Under the pieces are notes generated by a model. That model searched no databases, was not told the DNA's origin, and saw nothing but the letters and a program-made list of their open reading frames with translations. Positions 36,655 to 45,173 of a stretch of DNA of 45,173 nt are shown in pieces (position 1 is the first letter of the stretch; each line of letters begins with the position of its first letter). The translations under genes were made by a program, and so were the position numbers. This stretch comes from Fidelibacterota bacterium (lineage in GTDB: Bacteria; Fidelibacterota; UBA2242). Location: NCBI GenBank assembly GCA_016783665.1, contig JADHWC010000008.1, positions 1 through 45,173 on the forward strand, read 5' to 3'.

Positions 36655-38337
36655 TCAATTCATATCGGTTATTTTCTTATCAACCCGGTTCATTATCCGT
36701 CTGACCATTTTCTGACCTGCCTGTCTTAGCTTAGCCACGCTTTTTTTCATTGCGCCGTTAAATTCCTGATCGTCGATACCGGACAGGTTAATGAGAACAT
36801 TTAGCCCGGCGCCTTTGATTGCCGTATCAGCCGATAATGCCGCCACGCCGACATCACTGATTGAATTGATATTGCCGTATTTTGAAACGACTTCGGTCAG
36901 CTCCAACACCTTTACACAGGTTTCCATTACCTGTAAGGGAACATTCACCGCATTCCTGGTAGCCTCCTGTATCGCAGCCTGTCGTCTGGCTTTATCCCCA
37001 ATGGTCTTTTTCGGTAAGCGGAAACACGCCATTACCTTATTAAACGCCGCCGTATCCAGATCGACAAATCTCAGCAGTTCGTCCTTTAATTCCTGAGATC
37101 TTACCGCAACATCATTCATTTTCTTAAAATGTCGTTCATAGCCTTTTTTTCCGTGGGTCAGGTTTGCGACCATAGCCGTCAGACTGGCAGCCATTGCCCC
37201 CGACAGAGCCGCCACGCTGCCGCCGCCCGGCGCGGGAGAATCAGTGGATAATTCATCGGCAAACCCGCGGGCTGTCATTTCCACCAGCGAATCTTCAAAT
37301 TCTTTGAACTGGTACTCAATGATTTTCCTGGCAGGTTCAAAAGGCGATACGTCGTTCAAACCGAGCGACTGGATCGCAGTACGGATCAATCCCTCTTCCG
37401 GAACACCTTCGGAATGTCCCTGGGCGTTAAGAAAATATTTTCCCGCCATGATCATGGCTTCTTTCGGAATCAATCCGACGATTTCAGAACCGGTTACACG
37501 CAGACCTTTTTTATTGGCGAGCCGCCGGATTTCCTCAAACACAACATGAGGCGGAGTGACTTCATAATTTGTCAGGTTAATGGACACCTGCGCCATTTTG
37601 TATTCATCGATATACCAGCCAACCGCTTTTGTATATTGCAATAAACCCGGGACACGCAGCGCCACGCCATTTTCATCACGGACAATATTACCTTTTTTAT
37701 CCCGTTTTAAACAACCTTTTTCACGGATAATGAGAGCAATGTCGGTGGCTAATTTTCGATCGCCTGTATTCAGATTGACATTATAGGCAATCAGGAATTC
37801 TCTGACACCCATTACCGTTGCGCCGGATTTGGCGTTAAATTCAGCCCTGCCGTAATCGGGTTTCCAATCCGGGTCCTTCAGCTTTTCCTGCAATCCTTCG
37901 TATTCACCGGCGCGAATATCAGCAAGATTTTCCCGGTTCGGTTTTTGGGCTGATTTTTCATATAAATAGACCGGAATATTCAATTCATCGGCTACTTTCT
38001 TTGCCAATTCATGCGAGAGTTGAACACATTCTTCTTCAGTGATGCCCGATATTGGAACAAGCGGGCAGACGTCGGTCGCGCCCAGCCGGGCATGTGCCCC
38101 GCTATGTTTCCGCATATCAATTACTTCGGCTGCTTTTGCAATTCCGGCAAATGCTCCTTCCAGAACACCTTGCTTTGTTCCGATAAATGTAACTACCGTA
38201 CGATTAGTATCGGCACCTGGATCCACATCCAACAGTTTTACGCCGTCAACGGCTTCTATTGCATCGGTAATTGCTTTGATGACGTTCAGGTCGCGACCCT
38301 CGCTAAAATTCGGGATGCATTCAATTATTTCGGGCAT
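36655..38337 (-). CDS. ftcD: glutamate formimidoyltransferase / formimidoyl-THF cyclodeaminase (fusion)
   Basis: IIECIPNFSEGRD...DVDPGADTNRTVVTF... and C-terminal LSTDSPAPGGGSVAALSGAMAASLTAMVANLT. Confidence 0.92.
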   Translation of the reverse strand: MPEIIECIPNFSEGRDLNVIKAITDAIEAVDGVKLLDVDPGADTNRTVVTFIGTKQGVLEGAFAGIAKAAEVIDMRKHSGAHARLGATDVCPLVPISGITEEECVQLSHELAKKVADELNIPVYLYEKSAQKPNRENLADIRAGEYEGLQEKLKDPDWKPDYGRAEFNAKSGATVMGVREFLIAYNVNLNTGDRKLATDIALIIREKGCLKRDKKGNIVRDENGVALRVPGLLQYTKAVGWYIDEYKMAQVSINLTNYEVTPPHVVFEEIRRLANKKGLRVTGSEIVGLIPKEAMIMAGKYFLNAQGHSEGVPEEGLIRTAIQSLGLNDVSPFEPARKIIEYQFKEFEDSLVEMTARGFADELSTDSPAPGGGSVAALSGAMAASLTAMVANLTHGKKGYERHFKKMNDVAVRSQELKDELLRFVDLDTAAFNKVMACFRLPKKTIGDKARRQAAIQEATRNAVNVPLQVMETCVKVLELTEVVSKYGNINSISDVGVAALSADTAIKGAGLNVLINLSGIDDQEFNGAMKKSVAKLRQAGQKMVRRIMNRVDKKITDMN

Positions 38338-38349
38338 AGTTACTCCTCG

Positions 38350-38535
38350 TTATCTGATACCGTTCAAATACAACATTATTCCAACGATTACGATTAATAT
38401 AAAAATCAGCCACCACAATGGTTTCGTCATTTTCTTAGGATTCTTATGTAAACGTTGAAAGTGAACCCGTTTACTATCACGATCAGAGCGTTTATCCGTG
38501 ATCGAAAATCCTCTTTTTTGATATCTGACCATCAC
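38350..38535 (-). CDS. small single-TM membrane protein
   Basis: WWLIFILIVIVGIMLYLNG; overlaps the upstream gene stop. Confidence 0.55.
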   Translation of the reverse strand: MMVRYQKRGFSITDKRSDRDSKRVHFQRLHKNPKKMTKPLWWLIFILIVIVGIMLYLNGIR

Positions 38536-39176
38536 GCTCCTCCTGCAAACAGTCTTGAAAAGAAATTGACAAAGGGATAGATAAAAGCACCAAGGATTGA
38601 AATTCTTGTCGCCATTCCAAACAGGATCAATCCCATTAAAACAAACGGACCATACCGTTCGAGATACTGATAGACATATTCATATCGATAGGGTAATAAA
38701 CCATATAAAATCTTCGAACCATCCAGAGGAGGCACCGGTAAAAGATTAAAAATTGCCAGCGCCAGGTTGATCTGTAAACTAAATTTTACCATGATATAAA
38801 CCGGCTTCAGGATATTAGCCGGGAGAAAATTGAAGTTCCCGGCATGAAACGACCTCAGCAGCAACCCACTAAGAAATGCTAATAGCATATTCGCCGCTGG
38901 GCCCGCGACTGAGACGAGCAGCATGTCTCTTTTAGGTTTGCTAAAATAGCGCGGATTTACCGGCACCGGTTTCGCCCAGCCAAAGCGTACCAGGAATATC
39001 ATGATAGTCCCAAAGGGATCTAAGTGAACAAGCGGATTCATGGTTAACCGCCCCGCTAATTTGGCGGTTGGATCGCCCAGGCGATAAGCCATCCAGCCAT
39101 GCATGAATTCGTGGAAGGTCAGCGCCAGAAGAATCGGGGGCGCCAGTAATATAATAACCTGTAAGTTCATTGCCAC
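38532..39176 (-). CDS. M50-family site-2-protease-like membrane metallopeptidase
   Basis: FHEFMHGWMAYRLGDPTAKLAGRLTMNPLVHLDPFGT ... NLLPVPPLDGSKIL. Confidence 0.92.
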   Translation of the reverse strand: MAMNLQVIILLAPPILLALTFHEFMHGWMAYRLGDPTAKLAGRLTMNPLVHLDPFGTIMIFLVRFGWAKPVPVNPRYFSKPKRDMLLVSVAGPAANMLLAFLSGLLLRSFHAGNFNFLPANILKPVYIMVKFSLQINLALAIFNLLPVPPLDGSKILYGLLPYRYEYVYQYLERYGPFVLMGLILFGMATRISILGAFIYPFVNFFSRLFAGGA

Positions 39177-39355
39177 CTCGGTTGAAAATTAAAATTCTGT
39201 GAAATTGACGAAACTTGATAAAAAATATAAGATTAAAATAGCATAACATATTTATTGAAAATAATTTATAAAGAGACTGTTACAATAGAAACAGAAAAGA
39301 ACGAAGTTTTCAACATTTTTAATTGACATTTTAAACGTTTTAAATAAAACTACGG

Positions 39356-39899
39356 TCAACAGGTCTCACCTATTGTTATTCTCGTTCAACTCTTTTCCCA
39401 CAGGGAGCCCTTTAGGACAAGTTTTGGAGTGCTGTATACAAGAAAGGTGATCGATAAAAATAAATGGTGTCCGATTAATCCCGGAGGGATTGAACATGAA
39501 TAACATTAGACGAAGTCTGGTGAAAGAAAGAGTCCCCCTCCCACCAAGCAAAACACCGGAGGTGTTTAACTCGACAAGCATGAAATCATTTTTAAGGGAA
39601 ATCGGACGTAAGTAATTCAACCCTTCAGGGTTGGGGACTTTGTTTTTGGTTCTTCGATCAACAGGTTATACCTATTGTTATTCATATTAAACCCTTGCAG
39701 GGTTTAGAGCAATGAATAAAAACCGGACAATCCCGTCCCGAAGGATCCCGATGGGGAAAGAATTGGAATTATCCCTTTTAAGGTTTATAAAAAATTATAC
39801 ATATTCGAAAATCCCGGAGGGATTGAATGTGAATAACATCCGGCAGCTGCCGGATGAATAAAGAGTGTCCCCAAAGACAAAACACCGGAGGCGTTTAAC
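39356..39899. repeat. imperfect tandem duplication (~0.3 kb) carrying three ordered short repeat units C-A-B / C-A-B
   Basis: C 39356-39381 & 39658-39683; A (AATCCCGGAGGGATTGAAYRTGAATAACAT) 39477-39506 & 39810-39839; B (CAAAACACCGGAGGYGTTTAAC) 39549-39570 & 39878-39899. Confidence 0.8.
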
Positions 39900-39946
39900 G
39901 TGATACAAAGCGCAACACCGCAGCCGGAAAAAAGGTAATCCCGAGG

Positions 39947-39976
39947 CCTGTCTCCGGCGGCTGCCGGACAGGCAGG
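39947..39976. repeat. intergenic palindrome CCTGTCTCCGGC-GGCT-GCCGGACAGGCAGG
   Basis: Perfect inner stem; same 5' CCTGTCT / 3' CAGGCAGG ends as 18522-18549. Confidence 0.65.
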
Positions 39977-40392
39977 CAAACCCGGGAAAATTCTTTGAAT
40001 GAACAACCCCGCCGCAAGCAACGGGGTATCTTAGATGAGCTTGAATGATTGAAACAACCCAAGGGTCGGGAAATTAAACCCATCTGGATGGGATTAAATG
40101 TAGAAATAGGGAAAAGGGATACCGGGAGCTACAATCAAGAGAATTTATTTCTTTAGGATTTGAAAATAGAACAATTAGTGATTATACTTTGGAGCAATGA
40201 TTAAAGATATGGAAAATGGGTTCATAATTTTGTATATAGAGAAAACAGTTCTTTTCTACATGCAGAAAACTCGTAAAAAGTTTTGTCTATGGAGAAACAT
40301 TGAAATTGTGAATTACGTCATATAATCATAGTTAGCCGGTTCTTAATATTAAACAAGGTGCAATGATATACAGTTAGATTTTATACGATTTG

Positions 40393-40470
40393 CACAGAAT
40401 ATCCTTGAAAATCGATAAGATTGTTGTAATATTCGGATGTTATGTGGAAAACTATAGAATAACTTGTTAG
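40393..40470 (+). promoter_or_regulatory. copy 1 of promoter + attI-like element
   Basis: TTGAAA (40405-40410)-16-TAATAT (40427-40432), ends ...AACTTGTTAG; 76/78 identical to 43186-43263; weaker similarity back to 40368. Confidence 0.65.
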
Positions 40471-40479
40471 CATTTTACA

Positions 40480-41904
40480 GTGCCACCAATGGAAAAGATG
40501 ACAATTCGTTACTGGAGAACAAGACCAGACCCATTTTTTGAGATAAATGACGAAATTCAGAAGAGATTACAAGTAAATCCCTTCCTGAGTGGCAAGAGAT
40601 TATTTAATGAATTTCAAAAATTATACCCTGGCAAGTTTGATGATAAATTACTGCGAACATTTCAACGCAGGGTAGAATCTTGGCGTAAGGCGAAAAATAC
40701 GATTGAAGCTACTAATGCCTGGATGCTTTCTCTACTACAAGGAAATAATGAATTAAGTGAGTTAAAAAAACAATGCAGCCATGTGTTAGCTGAGAAAGAT
40801 ATCTTTTCGCTAAATTACTGCATCCTTTTTAAGCCCTTAAAATTTAGAAATAGAGCAATGGCCGTACTTGGGCATTTACGCGGCATACCTAATTGTTACA
40901 TTTCTCACTTTCTTCACATTAGCACAGCAATTATTAGATCCTACATTCGTAAGTTTCAGTCAGGCGGCGTTGAGAGGTTGTTGGACATATCGAGGAAAGA
41001 TATAAAAAAATATGAGAACCCGAAATACAAAAATGAGGTTTTTAAAATATTGCATGAACCTCCTTCCTTGCATGGAATAAATAGAATTACATGGAAAATG
41101 GATGACATCCATCGCATAATGTCAGAAAGAGATCTTCCCATAGCCCTTGTTAACATCAGAAAAATAATAAGAAATGCTGGTTACCAAGTACGTAAAGCAA
41201 AGAAAGTACTTACAAGTACCGATCCTTTGTACAGAGAAAAATTAAAAGAGATCACAAGAATACTACAGTCATTAAAGCCAAAAGAGAAATTCTTTTCTAT
41301 TGACGAGTTTGGCCCATTTGCAGTGAAAATGCAGGGCGGAAGGGCTTTAGTTGCAAAGGGAGAAGAACGTACATATCCTCAATGGCAAAAAAGCAAAGGT
41401 ACCATTATCATAACTGCGGCCTTGGAGCTTTCTACAAATCAAATAACGCATTTTTATTCCAAAAACAAAAATACCGCGGAGATGATTAAATTATTAGATT
41501 TGCTCCTAAAGAAATACAAAAATGAAGAGTGCATTTATTTCTCTTGGGATGCGGCATCTTGGCACGCATCGAAAGCACTTTATGAAAAAGTTGAAAAGAT
41601 CAATAGTCAAGAACATAGGAGGGAATTCAATACCCCTCTTGTAAAATTAGCCCCTCTTCCGTCCTGTGCTCAATTTCTTAACGTGATCGAGTCGGTATTT
41701 AGTGGTATGGCAAGAGCAATCATACATAATAGTAATTACTCCTCGGTCGGCGAATGCAAAACTGCAATTGATCGCTATTTTGAGGAAAGAAATCAGAATT
41801 ACAAAGACAATCCCAAAAAAGCAGGGAATAAAATATGGGGCAAGGAACTTGTTGAACCTGTTTTCGAGGCAAGCAACAATTGCAAAGATCCAAAATGGCG
41901 ATAA
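40480..41904 (+). CDS. IS630-like DDE transposase (cassette 1)
   Basis: KFFSIDEFGPFAVK, CIYFSWDAASWHASKALYEKV, LAPLPSCAQFLNVIESVFSGMARA; N-terminus LLRTFQRRVESWR is IstA-like; GTG 40480 or ATG 40489. Confidence 0.7.
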   Translation: MPPMEKMTIRYWRTRPDPFFEINDEIQKRLQVNPFLSGKRLFNEFQKLYPGKFDDKLLRTFQRRVESWRKAKNTIEATNAWMLSLLQGNNELSELKKQCSHVLAEKDIFSLNYCILFKPLKFRNRAMAVLGHLRGIPNCYISHFLHISTAIIRSYIRKFQSGGVERLLDISRKDIKKYENPKYKNEVFKILHEPPSLHGINRITWKMDDIHRIMSERDLPIALVNIRKIIRNAGYQVRKAKKVLTSTDPLYREKLKEITRILQSLKPKEKFFSIDEFGPFAVKMQGGRALVAKGEERTYPQWQKSKGTIIITAALELSTNQITHFYSKNKNTAEMIKLLDLLLKKYKNEECIYFSWDAASWHASKALYEKVEKINSQEHRREFNTPLVKLAPLPSCAQFLNVIESVFSGMARAIIHNSNYSSVGECKTAIDRYFEERNQNYKDNPKKAGNKIWGKELVEPVFEASNNCKDPKWR

Positions 41905-41909
41905 AAACA

Positions 41910-41967
41910 TGCTAACAAAAAAATGCAGCCGACGCAGAAAAGCGCGCGGCTGATTTAGGTGTTAGGC
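41910..41967 (+). repeat. attC recombination site
   Basis: TGCTAAC-aaaaAAATGCAGCCG...CGGCTGATTTaggt-GTTAGGC: arms pair with one extra G in the left arm (extrahelical base). Confidence 0.85.
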
Positions 41968-41992
41968 TTATAGTGAAAATGTGAGGATTATT

Positions 41993-42646
41993 ATGAGAAA
42001 AATATTTCAAATTTCACTTATATTTATTATGGTAATTTTTATTTCAATAGACTCATTTGGACAAAATAAATATAGACTTGTTCGATATAAATATCTTGAT
42101 ACAAGTAAATGGAATAATTTTCTAGGGTCAAAAAGAACTCAATTTGATATAGAAGTCAAAGAAAATATTGAAGATGAAGAGATCAAAGAGATATTAGAAA
42201 AAGCTGTTATTGAGTTATCTGAACTTAGGGACGTTGATGCAATATCCGTTAGACTTTATATAGAAAATACTAATTTACCATACGCAATCGCTGATTGGGC
42301 TCCATACGGAGCCTGGAATAAAGCTGAAACGGGAATTCCAAAATCAGTTTTTAAAACATCAATTACTTTTTATCCAGAGCATAAAGCTAAAGAATCAAGT
42401 AAAGGTAAAAAATATGGACTATCTTTAGAACAGAGAAAAATAATATATCATGAAATATGTCAATCCCAGAAAAACACAAGACAAATTGCAGAGAAGAAAT
42501 ATCCTTCAGATATTATGAAACAATATGACTATATGGAAGATTTAGACAAGAAATATGAAAGTGAAATTTGTAGGAAATATTTTATTACAGATGATCAAAA
42601 GTGTAGAATAGTAGATGAAGGTGTTGAAAATAATTGGTCAGAATAA
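41993..42646 (+). CDS. exported hypothetical protein (cassette 2)
   Basis: Signal peptide MRKIFQISLIFIMVIFISIDSFGQN; immediately follows an attC. Confidence 0.6.
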   Translation: MRKIFQISLIFIMVIFISIDSFGQNKYRLVRYKYLDTSKWNNFLGSKRTQFDIEVKENIEDEEIKEILEKAVIELSELRDVDAISVRLYIENTNLPYAIADWAPYGAWNKAETGIPKSVFKTSITFYPEHKAKESSKGKKYGLSLEQRKIIYHEICQSQKNTRQIAEKKYPSDIMKQYDYMEDLDKKYESEICRKYFITDDQKCRIVDEGVENNWSE

Positions 42647-42671
42647 AAACTATTAAAAGCATAACAAATAA

Positions 42672-42703
42672 GGATTGATACAACGAGACGTTGTCATCAA
42701 TCC
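42672..42703 (+). other. strong hairpin upstream of the HU-family gene
   Basis: GGATTGATACAAC-GAGAC-GTTGTCATCAATCC (one bulged base); no T tract. Confidence 0.6.
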
Positions 42704-42735
42704 AGGGTTCAAGAAATTATAAAAGGAGACTATTA

Positions 42736-43038
42736 ATGCGTACCAGAACCTATACAAAGAAAGATGTCGTAGAAATTACGGCAAAACGCTTAGGCCAAAC
42801 GTTTTCGACGACTTTTAAGATCGTCGATGAGGCTTTTATCACATTGCGTGAAATGCTTTGTGAAGATAAAAAGAATTTACGTATCGAGATCCGTGGTTTT
42901 GGTGTCTTCGAAGTTAAACCCACCAGGGCGAAACCAAAAGCCCGCAACCCGCGGACAAACGAGATTGTTTACGTTCCTCCCCGGAAAAAGACCCATTTCA
43001 AACCGGGAATAATTATTAAAGCTGCTTTGAAAAAATAA
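42736..43038 (+). CDS. HU/IHF-family DNA-binding protein
   Basis: TYTKKDVVEITAKRLG...IEIRGFGVFEVKPTRAKPKARNPRTNEIVYVPPRKKTHFKPG; start MRTRTY at 42736 after AAAGGAG. Confidence 0.93.
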   Translation: MRTRTYTKKDVVEITAKRLGQTFSTTFKIVDEAFITLREMLCEDKKNLRIEIRGFGVFEVKPTRAKPKARNPRTNEIVYVPPRKKTHFKPGIIIKAALKK

Positions 43039-43185
43039 ACCGGATAGAGTTGTGATGCTTATTTCGTTTTATTATTTGTGTGCAATTTTGAAATTTGACC
43101 AGGTACATCAAGCATATGAAGTTTACCAGTTTCTTTATATTATCCTGCTTGTAATGTTATACAGTTAGTATAAGATAGAATTAGG

Positions 43186-43263
43186 CACAGAATACCCTTG
43201 AAAATCGATAAGATTGTTGTAATATTTGGATGTTATGTGGAAAACTATAGAATAACTTGTTAG
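43186..43263 (+). promoter_or_regulatory. copy 2 of promoter + attI-like element
   Basis: Same 78-bp element as 40393-40470, ending AACTTGTTAGGC directly before the next cassette ORF. Confidence 0.65.
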
Positions 43264-43294
43264 GCAGACGCTTCGCCCAGAATTGGAGAGTAGG

Positions 43295-43927
43295 ATGGAT
43301 CAGGACATGATTGAAGTACTGCAACGAAGGTTTCGTCAAATGTACCTGGCAACCCACGGTATGACGGAAGGCGATATGTCGAAAGTCATTATTCAGAAAA
43401 TAACTGGAGAACATGTTAGTGGGTGCCAGACCGAATTTTCGACCGGGCAGTCAATGGATGCTCTTCACAATTGCATATCTCTCTTAATAGCAAATATCGC
43501 TTCCTTGAAGGACCACCTCAAGGCATGGTGCAGCAAAAACGGTATGGAATTCAGAGGCGAAGAATTAGTTAATAGCAATACTGATGTGTCTATAGTTCAT
43601 GATCTATGGAATATCGATAAGCATCTGTCGCTCAATAAACCTCCGCGGTCTGGATTCACTCCACATATTGCAAATCTGAAGCAGAATATGGTGCTAACAA
43701 CGGGGAGCAATAAGGGTGATTCGATCGGAATGACAATTGATCCTATTACAGGGAAAATGAAAATCAGTACTATTGGTGGAGGGTCAGCATCTGTTGTGAT
43801 CACAGCTGACGTCATCGACGAGAACGAGAAAAGTCATGGTGATTTGCTTCAAATCTGCAAGGGCGCGATTGATGCCTGGGAGAAGATGTTTTGGGAATGC
43901 GGGATAACTATGAAGGAAGATGCCTAA
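43295..43927 (+). CDS. hypothetical cassette protein (cassette 3)
   Basis: ATG 43295 after GGAGAG; stop lies inside the attC; contains DLWNIDKHL motif. Confidence 0.55.
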   Translation: MDQDMIEVLQRRFRQMYLATHGMTEGDMSKVIIQKITGEHVSGCQTEFSTGQSMDALHNCISLLIANIASLKDHLKAWCSKNGMEFRGEELVNSNTDVSIVHDLWNIDKHLSLNKPPRSGFTPHIANLKQNMVLTTGSNKGDSIGMTIDPITGKMKISTIGGGSASVVITADVIDENEKSHGDLLQICKGAIDAWEKMFWECGITMKEDA

Positions 43928-43983
43928 CGAATTCAAGCCGATTCGCGCCGCAATGGCGCTCACGGCTTAAGCGACGTTATAAG
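43922..43983 (+). repeat. attC recombination site
   Basis: GCCTAAC gaATTCAAGCCG...CGGCTTAAGCgac GTTATAAG; left-arm extrahelical C (TTCAAGCCG vs TT-AAGCCG). Confidence 0.85.
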
Positions 43984-44010
43984 CCAAAGCCACCTCAACA
44001 AGAGGATCAT

Positions 44011-44400
44011 ATGCAAGAACCTTGGAAGAAAGATACAAATGACAGATACGTTGAAGTCGTAAAGACTGTCATGGGACTGTCTACAGCCGCCCTTTTTTTG
44101 CCTATTCTCCTCGCTCGTGAATTTCTCGGCGTTGAAAGCAATGTGGCACTGGGTGGCGTTTTTACCGCCTCAATTTACTGGGCACTTTTCTTACTCGCTA
44201 TGTCCATTCTTTCTGGTGTGTTCTATCAGTACTTGTCAGCAAAATGGTTGAGAATTGCATGGGGAAAGAAGGCGGGAATATTTTTCTCAAAGGACACAAA
44301 GGAAGGAACAGTAGAATATTGCATGGTGGTCAGTCTGTGGGCGTGTATCATCTTCTTTTTTATAGGTCTTATTTTACAATTGGTTTTCTTTGTTTTTTAA
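44011..44400 (+). CDS. multi-TM membrane protein (cassette 4)
   Basis: ATG 44011: MQEPWKKDTNDRYVEVVKTVMGLSTAALFLPILLA... with 3-4 hydrophobic segments. Confidence 0.6.
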   Translation: MQEPWKKDTNDRYVEVVKTVMGLSTAALFLPILLAREFLGVESNVALGGVFTASIYWALFLLAMSILSGVFYQYLSAKWLRIAWGKKAGIFFSKDTKEGTVEYCMVVSLWACIIFFFIGLILQLVFFVF

Positions 44401-44410
44401 TGAAAGAGGC

Positions 44411-44498
44411 TTTTAACAAATCACTTCAGCGGACTGGAAAGAGCGCGGCGGCCTTACGGGTAAGGATTTTGACCAGCCGCTGAGCTCAAGCGTTGGAC
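44411..44498 (+). repeat. attC recombination site
   Basis: TTTTAAC aaatcaCTTCAGCGGACTGG...CCAGCCGCTGAGctcaagc GTTGGAC; paired arms with extra bases in the left arm. Confidence 0.85.
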
Positions 44499-44510
44499 GA
44501 GGAGAGATTT

Positions 44511-44966
44511 ATGGCAAAACGACGAGATAGTCAGAAATCAGGTCTGGCCGGTGAGTTCTTTGTTGCGGCAGAACTCCTCAAACGGGACTTTCAGGTTGCG
44601 CTCACAATGGGCAACGCCAAGTCGGTCGATATCATCGTCCAGCGGGAGGACACTTCTCTTCCAGTCACCGTCCAGGTAAAGACACTCCGGAGTTCCAACT
44701 GCTATCTCATCGGCGTTCGCGATGTCGTCCCTTCCCAAATCTATGTGTTCGTTCTCCTTCGCAAGGTCGCGCAACCTGTTGAGTACTTCATTGTGTTCGG
44801 GCAGGAAATGCTTGATCGTCGTTTTGAGATCTGGGGGCAGAATGGAGGAGATGGAGATTTTGCTGGAATCACCATGGGGCGAATACGCCCTTTTCAAGAT
44901 CGATGGGATGTATTTGACAATATGTTAAACAAGGCATCGTCCAACAAAGCCATCGACGGCGACTGA
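44511..44966 (+). CDS. PD-(D/E)XK nuclease-like protein (cassette 5)
   Basis: SGLAGEFFVAAELLKRDFQVALTMGNAKSVDIIVQ...PVTVQVKTLRSS: E...D...QxK arrangement; ATG 44511 after GGAGAG. Confidence 0.65.
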   Translation: MAKRRDSQKSGLAGEFFVAAELLKRDFQVALTMGNAKSVDIIVQREDTSLPVTVQVKTLRSSNCYLIGVRDVVPSQIYVFVLLRKVAQPVEYFIVFGQEMLDRRFEIWGQNGGDGDFAGITMGRIRPFQDRWDVFDNMLNKASSNKAIDGD

Positions 44967-45017
44967 GTAAACCGTGCTCTGCGCGGCTTCCTCAGCGCGT
45001 CATGGCAGATGTTATGT
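44964..45017 (+). repeat. possible attC-like site (degenerate)
   Basis: GTAAACcgtgctctgcgcgg...cgcgtcatggcagatGTTATGTC at the expected cassette boundary; boxes poorly conserved. Confidence 0.4.
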
Positions 45018-45039
45018 CAATAAAAACATAGGATACACC

Positions 45040-45173
45040 ATGGACTACGAACAATACGAAAAAGAGTGTAAACGAATAAGAAAAGAAAATAAAAAACTGA
45101 TTTCCAATTTTGAAAAGTGGCTCTCCGACAAAAATCTGTCTTCAAAAACAAATAAAAAACACGCATCAAATGT
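45040..45173 (+). CDS. N-terminal part of a cassette ORF (runs off the window)
   Basis: ATG 45040: MDYEQYEKECKRIRKENKKLISNFEKWLSDKNLSSKTNKKHASN, open to the window end; ATAGGA upstream. Confidence 0.55.
   Translation, partial: MDYEQYEKECKRIRKENKKLISNFEKWLSDKNLSSKTNKKHASN

Follow-up and report, generated by a model that had tools for sequence, protein, structure and literature searches.

The attI1 site of class 1 integrons spans 65 bp and comprises the DR1, DR2, L and R boxes (PMC12901181). The same class also has attI sites in tandem, in attI-type cassettes and in attI1-gene-attI1 arrays, the latter being excised almost completely by IntI1 (PMC12901181). Outside class 1 integrons attI is poorly known, and IntegronFinder searches for attI in class 1 only (PMC9024848). 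The attI of archaeal integrons lies immediately downstream of intI and is semi-conserved across phyla (PMC9668308). In Vibrio cholerae the cassette promoter Pc is located close upstream of attI (PMC3948777). Arrays of attC sites that have no integrase in cis are termed CALIN and are defined without attI (PMC9024848). At the locus described here, an attI site with its probable Pc, assignable to a recognizable integron lineage, is duplicated and retained in the absence of its integrase. Sites of this kind have hardly been described outside class 1.

The window (the whole stretch of 45,173 nucleotides that was analysed) carries two copies of a 78-bp element on the forward strand, at positions 40393–40470 and 43186–43263. 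The preliminary description had given their coordinates and their identity at 76 of 78 bases, and realignment confirmed both. The 60 bp flanking the copies on each side, compared without gaps, are identical at chance level (14/60 and 17/60). Gapped alignment extends a weaker likeness leftward to 40332 and 43123, the ~140 bp being 84% identical as a whole and their last 78 bp 97% identical. The element is the 3' part of a longer attI/Pc module that occupies 40332–40469 (138 bp) in copy 1 and 43123–43262 in copy 2. The 138-bp segment of copy 1 has matches of 89–94% identity in genomes G006 and G015, where they head other cassettes. We consider it very probable that the element makes up the 3' portion of an attI site, most likely with its Pc, that the intI of the lineage was lost and that the modules survive as array heads, two of them in tandem in the window and one on another contig of the same genome (C51).

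The 3' ends of both copies coincide with an integron crossover, AACTTG/TTAGC in copy 1 and AACTTG/TTAGGC in copy 2 (the slash marks the point of exchange). Copy 1 features an L box GAATAAC (40457–40463) and an R box GTTAGCA (40466–40472), with the crossover between 40466 and 40467. The corresponding boxes of copy 2 are GAATAAC (43250–43256) and GTTAGGC (43259–43265), with the crossover between 43259 and 43260. Both R boxes follow the GTTRRRY core with crossover after the G, that of copy 1 being one base off at the last Y. A GTTATG motif at 40439–40444 of copy 1 is a candidate DR-like integrase-binding repeat, as judged from the position of the direct repeats in attI1, and GTTAY or GATAT recurs at the DR-like position in copies from other phyla. 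Family copies aligned across genera match through ...GAATAACTTG/TTA and then diverge into unrelated genes. Homology among them stops at AACTTG/TT, each copy being followed by a different gene of its own, and a 17-bp core AAACTATAGAATAACTT of the L/R-box region is common to several phyla. This organization (DR GTTATG, L box GAATAAC, R box GTTRRRY) identifies the 78-bp element, on sequence grounds, as an attI site with a probable Pc inside. It resembles attI1 in the R box and its crossover after G, in the L box just upstream, in the DR-like GTTATG further upstream, in the lack of a hairpin and in the divergent intI found alongside in relatives. It differs from attI1 in its sequence, in the spacing of AAC and GTT (two bases, against three in attI1), in the lack of an adjacent intI and in its duplication.

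Shuffle-based fold z-scores are −0.01 and +1.5 for the module (138–146 nt) and +0.2 and +1.4 for the 78-mers, values that reveal no hairpin. An attC identity of the 78-bp element or of the 138–146 nt segment was rejected, the R''L''-L'R' hairpin that defines attC being absent on folding. Two of the attC sites in the window have fold z-scores of −3.7 and −3.5 while two others reach merely −1.2 and −1.5, so that folding alone is not decisive for distinguishing attI from attC.

The Pc promoter is predicted inside attI. The TTGAAA-16-TAATAT pattern noticed in each copy by the preliminary description is indeed present, with a candidate −35 TTGAAA at 40405–40410 and a candidate −10 TAATAT at 40427–40432 (16-bp spacer) in copy 1, and the same hexamers at 43198–43203 and 43220–43225 in copy 2. 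In most copies from Marinimicrobia and Scalindua/Brocadia a TTGNNA is found ~42–44 bp before the AAACTATAG core, and TTGNNA-16/17-TANNNT is located at a similar distance. When the hexamer match was tested on each single sequence against shuffled upstream DNA it was no better than in the shuffles, and Pc is for this reason treated as a prediction. Transcription would start within attI and read into the first cassette, and two expression heads in the window are plausible.

Copies of the attI core AAACTATAGAATAACTTGTT are found in Marinimicrobia (Neomarinimicrobiota), the presumed phylum of the window, and in Scalindua/Brocadiaceae, Desulfobacterota and Nitrospinae. When 84,980 genomes were scanned for exact matches to the 21-mer AAACTATAGAATAACTTRTKR, 36 stretches were retrieved, compared to ~1–7 expected by chance at 50–40% GC. 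They belong to these four groups, with single hits elsewhere, the Desulfobacterota matches being deposited as Deltaproteobacteria, Syntrophales, Desulfobacteraceae, Desulfocapsaceae and Desulfobulbaceae. A few of the 36 (e.g., L083, L098 and L112) may be chance matches, and the argument rests on those that have independent support. The element has no match in plasmids, phages or IMG/VR, and the core sequence, searched for in the literature, was found in no paper.

At five loci the core is located upstream of a divergent integron integrase gene, 99–300 bp from its start codon: in a Brocadiaceae (L130/L177), in Scalindua arabica (L146/L176), twice in Scalindua rubra (L163, and L166, which is truncated at a contig end) and in a Desulfocapsaceae (L096/L145). 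The location of attI beside an integron integrase is thus observed at five loci of relatives and not in the window, where intI is missing in cis. The core-linked integrases feature an amino terminus extension and are 435–503 residues long. The tree covered three of the five, which group together in a single clade (SH-aLRT 100) apart from the IntI encoded on contig C86 of the window's own genome, and the two Scalindua rubra integrases, outside the tree, match L130 at ~80%. The other intI loci examined have no core in cis at up to 3 mismatches, save decayed cases such as G009 (L057/L086), where the carboxyl-terminal half of a different IntI is found by the core. At L084, L085, L101, L105, L107 and L116 divergent truncated intI fragments of the cognate clade are found upstream of the core. 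Judging from these remnants, the attI site outlives its integrase gene. On the other hand, for many heads outside Marinimicrobia the 8 kb examined contain no intI and no attC confirmed by the model.

The 20-bp attI core, linked to one IntI clade and present in at least four phyla, provides a handle for finding array heads directly, for telling CALINs that keep their insertion site from mere leftovers and for asking if an integrase can act in trans on an attI that is not its own. Conservation of attI across phyla is shared with archaeal integrons, whose layout resembles the intI-attI arrangement of contig C86 and of genome G010 (see below). The attI type of the window differs from theirs in that it is located upstream of a divergent intI, which is missing here.

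The homology between the two heads ends at a G/TT and also starts at one (40331/40332 and near 43122/43123), a left edge such as insertion of the 138-bp module into other attI-like sites would leave. Over 71 bp the left flank of copy 2 is related to those of two sites in G006:C87 that lack the module, an alignment in which the exact left border cannot be fixed. Copy 1 (40393–40470) looks mosaic, its left part resembling the heads of G006:C9 and G015 and its right part (TTGTTG…GGATGTTATGTGG) resembling copy 2, which suggests exchange between heads.

Homology that starts and ends at G/TT could also be produced by an ORF-less promoter cassette with its own attC that was inserted twice, gene-less promoter cassettes being known in Vibrio (PMC11014356). 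However, neither the 138–146 nt segment nor the 78-mer folds stably, relatives carry the same DNA as the intergenic region between intI and array, and the type C copies have just 96 bp in common with a different left border, all of which renders such a cassette improbable. The preliminary description had left the choice between a promoter-carrying cassette boundary and a duplicated attI/Pc in an integrase-less, CALIN-like array. The former is disfavoured because the segment does not fold, while the latter is better supported by the core found next to divergent intI in relatives, by the G/TT ends and by the attC sites lying downstream in matching orientation. A MITE- or REP-like dispersed repeat of small size that carries a promoter and is found near cassettes by chance was considered in view of the six matches in G006 and of their differing flanks. 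It is very unlikely, given that the own genome has two copies (three with the diverged one on C51), each ending exactly at the integron core before cassettes, and that the element adjoins divergent intI in relatives.

The duplicated attI/Pc heads are each followed by cassettes, all on the forward strand. Copy 1 is followed by an IS630-type transposase gene, an attC, a gene coding a protein of unknown function, an attC-like hairpin, an HU/IHF-family gene and copy 2, which is in turn followed by three cassettes with attC sites and, where the contig ends, by the beginning of a fourth. The cassettes are located on the right-hand side of the G/TT crossover in each copy, and their transcription would begin at the head. 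Upstream of copy 1, positions 40105–40298 are a relic that resembles the region on the 3' side of intI genes (the end of an accessory ORF with GAGAAAC repeats), 66% identical to L064 9163–8970, which is located just downstream of intI in G015:C17. The first cassette gene after copy 1 (40480–41904) codes for a 474-residue IS630-family transposase (DDE_3; NCBIfam NF033545, 131 bits; Pfam DDE_3), a transposase gene placed as a cassette between attI and attC. Its attC at 41910–41967 is detected by the covariance model (39.9 bits, E 3.3e-7, a site in the training set; DNA fold z −3.7). The second cassette gene (41981–42646) codes for a 221-residue protein that has no Pfam or NCBIfam match. It is followed by the attC-like hairpin (42655–42722; fold z −6.95), a candidate only, with a poor R' (GTTCAAG) and missed by the attC model; this hairpin also precedes a head in G006:C87. 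The HU/IHF-family gene (42736–43038; PF00216, 60.8 bits) lies directly before copy 2. A decayed HU homolog precedes the same attI in G006:C147 (L049 526–835), where it is broken by short palindromic insertions, and the flank in G006:C87 has no HU gene. The own genome carries a second HU gene on contig C14. The statement that the heads are separated by an HU gene holds as to its presence, but it is not their sole content since the two cassette-like ORFs at 40480–41904 and 41981–42646 are found there too.

The first cassette gene after copy 2 (43295–43927) has no Pfam or NCBIfam match, and its attC (43922–43982) scores weakly with the model (16.3 bits, E 0.7) and shows R''/R' and L''/L' pairing in the fold. 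It was also correctly noted beforehand that each copy stands directly before an ORF with a downstream attC (40480–41904 with 41910–41967; 43295–43927 with 43922–43982). The second gene (44011–44400) is an ORF between two attC sites, the one at its end (44411–44498) having a model score of 43.6 bits (E 3.4e-8, in the training set). The third gene (44511–44966) codes for a protein with weak similarity to PDDEXK_5 and is followed by an attC (44945–45020) recognized by eye and by its fold (z −3.5). The next cassette gene (45040–45173) is cut by the contig end. The attC search was based on a covariance model that replaced a home-made pattern finder, too unspecific for use. This model was trained partly on sites of the window and its relatives, whose scores are therefore not independent, while hits in other phyla are independent; it misses some long attC sites visible by eye (e.g., L151 5480–5550). 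On head-bearing contigs its hits at E ≤ 0.01 are found downstream of the head in the same orientation, apart from opposite-strand mirror hits of the same sites. A search of Rfam with 38000–45173 gave no match.

The absence of an integron integrase from the window was upheld: its sole tyrosine-recombinase piece is a carboxyl-terminal fragment of 63 residues (209–400) near the contig start. With at least two attC sites and no integrase in cis within the window the array qualifies as a CALIN (41910 and 44411 identified by the model, 43922 and 44945 weaker), and it runs off the contig end. It shares with CALINs the attC array without intI in cis, and departs from their definition in that an attI is identified and kept. 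The window is best described as a CALIN that has preserved its attI, the heads having lost their integrase.

The two heads are direct repeats 2793 bp apart. Tandem heads in direct repeat are also found in G006:C87 (1686 bp apart), in a Nitrospinae contig (2825 bp apart) and in a Desulfobacteraceae contig (1733 bp apart). Beside the second Nitrospinae head, the divergent intI is preserved for its first 80 residues. The duplicated array head is unusual, as the preliminary description had remarked, although not unique. That a single attI was copied in silico had to be weighed because this is a metagenome assembly, the window ends inside an array and repeats break assemblies. Against such an artefact, the copies have two differences in 78 bases and their flanks differ on both sides, and each left flank recurs independently in other assemblies, that of copy 1 in G006:C9 (92% over 318 bp) and in G015:C32 and that of copy 2, with a decayed HU gene, in G006:C147. 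The presence of tandem heads 1.7–2.8 kb apart in three other genomes adds to making an assembly artefact very unlikely. Their occurrence in four unrelated genomes suggests that attI duplication inside arrays is recurrent and not a curiosity of class 1 integrons. In G006:C87 (L053 1500–4240) four consecutive attI-like ends are found, one pair being of the window type and the other having GACATCG/TTAGC at its end; each is followed by one or two genes and the first follows an intI relic.

The duplicated attI of the window resembles the known attI-type cassettes (Partridge et al.) in that a second attI is located downstream of a cassette in the same array and in direct orientation. The known ones belong to class 1 and 2 mobile integrons and mostly keep few attI bases, whereas the second copy in the window is an attI/Pc module of 138–140 bp that has an HU gene before it and belongs to uncultured chromosomal integrons. 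The position of the HU gene before attI copy 2 fits a candidate attI-type gene cassette, whose 3' site is attI and not attC. We infer that tandem heads form when attI sits downstream of a cassette, replacing or following its attC, like in the class 1 attI-type cassettes. By analogy, an integrase could excise the 2.8 kb between the two direct attI copies as a circle.

A check set beforehand was whether the element occurs many times genome-wide away from cassettes, and no such pattern was found. The own draft genome (2.38 Mb, 92% complete) has exactly two copies of the 78-mer and a third, diverged copy at C51:42728 with 2 mismatches in the 20-bp core, and all three head cassettes. The C51 head is followed by a short array of two or three genes and by an attC hairpin (fold z −12.6; L151 5480–5550). 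It lies between a truncated tonB-like gene and outer-membrane-type genes, both sides being resolved, and no integrase is found beside it on either side. The start of a second tonB-like gene (L151 4500–4700) is repeated and cut off just before the head, as if the C51 array had replaced the remainder of this gene.

In the chromosomal integron lineage to which the heads are assigned, the integrase gene would normally be divergent and just upstream of attI, and it appears to be absent from this genome. While the lack of intI holds for the window, one complete intI is present elsewhere in the genome, on contig C86 (TIGR02249, 484 bits; L011 11714–12876, C86:19713–20875). Its product belongs in the tree to another clade than the attI-linked integrases. 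In G010, which carries a near twin of the C86 locus (L063 3720–1, G010:C237), the array has the orientation of intI and begins ~180 bp past the intI stop codon, at AATAAACGTAG/TT, and the own C86 contig ends exactly at this position. The C86 IntI therefore has a different attI of its own. In these two Marinimicrobia intI reads towards its array, and many contigs of the phylum end no more than a few hundred bases away from the 3' end of intI. Shortly before the complete C86 gene, the other strand carries a decayed amino-terminal piece of a second intI (L011 11284–11608, C86:19283–19607). The search of the Marinimicrobia family for an intact IntI of the cognate clade retrieved none, the nearest having ~47% identity. 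As, in addition, the C86 IntI has its own attI, any working attI-IntI pair at these heads is putative.

Recombination at the heads would be carried out at present by the C86 IntI in trans, or would have been carried out earlier by the lost cognate IntI. A split integron, in which the chromosomal C86 IntI serves in trans several dispersed, integrase-free attI/Pc heads derived from another, lost IntI clade, is a tentative proposal that we regard as possible but rather doubtful. If true, one cell would run several cassette platforms, two of them in tandem.

The last cassettes of the window (44473–45173, 701 bp) are 98.0% identical to part of an intI-less array in G006:C9 that is headed by the same attI. 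G006 belongs to a different genus and its mutL is only 71.6% identical, which shows that the cassettes moved recently. They may have been transferred by a C86-type IntI acting in trans, by a cognate IntI since lost or unassembled, or as a block without an integrase. The gene cut by the contig end is found in G006:C9 as the same gene in the same order.
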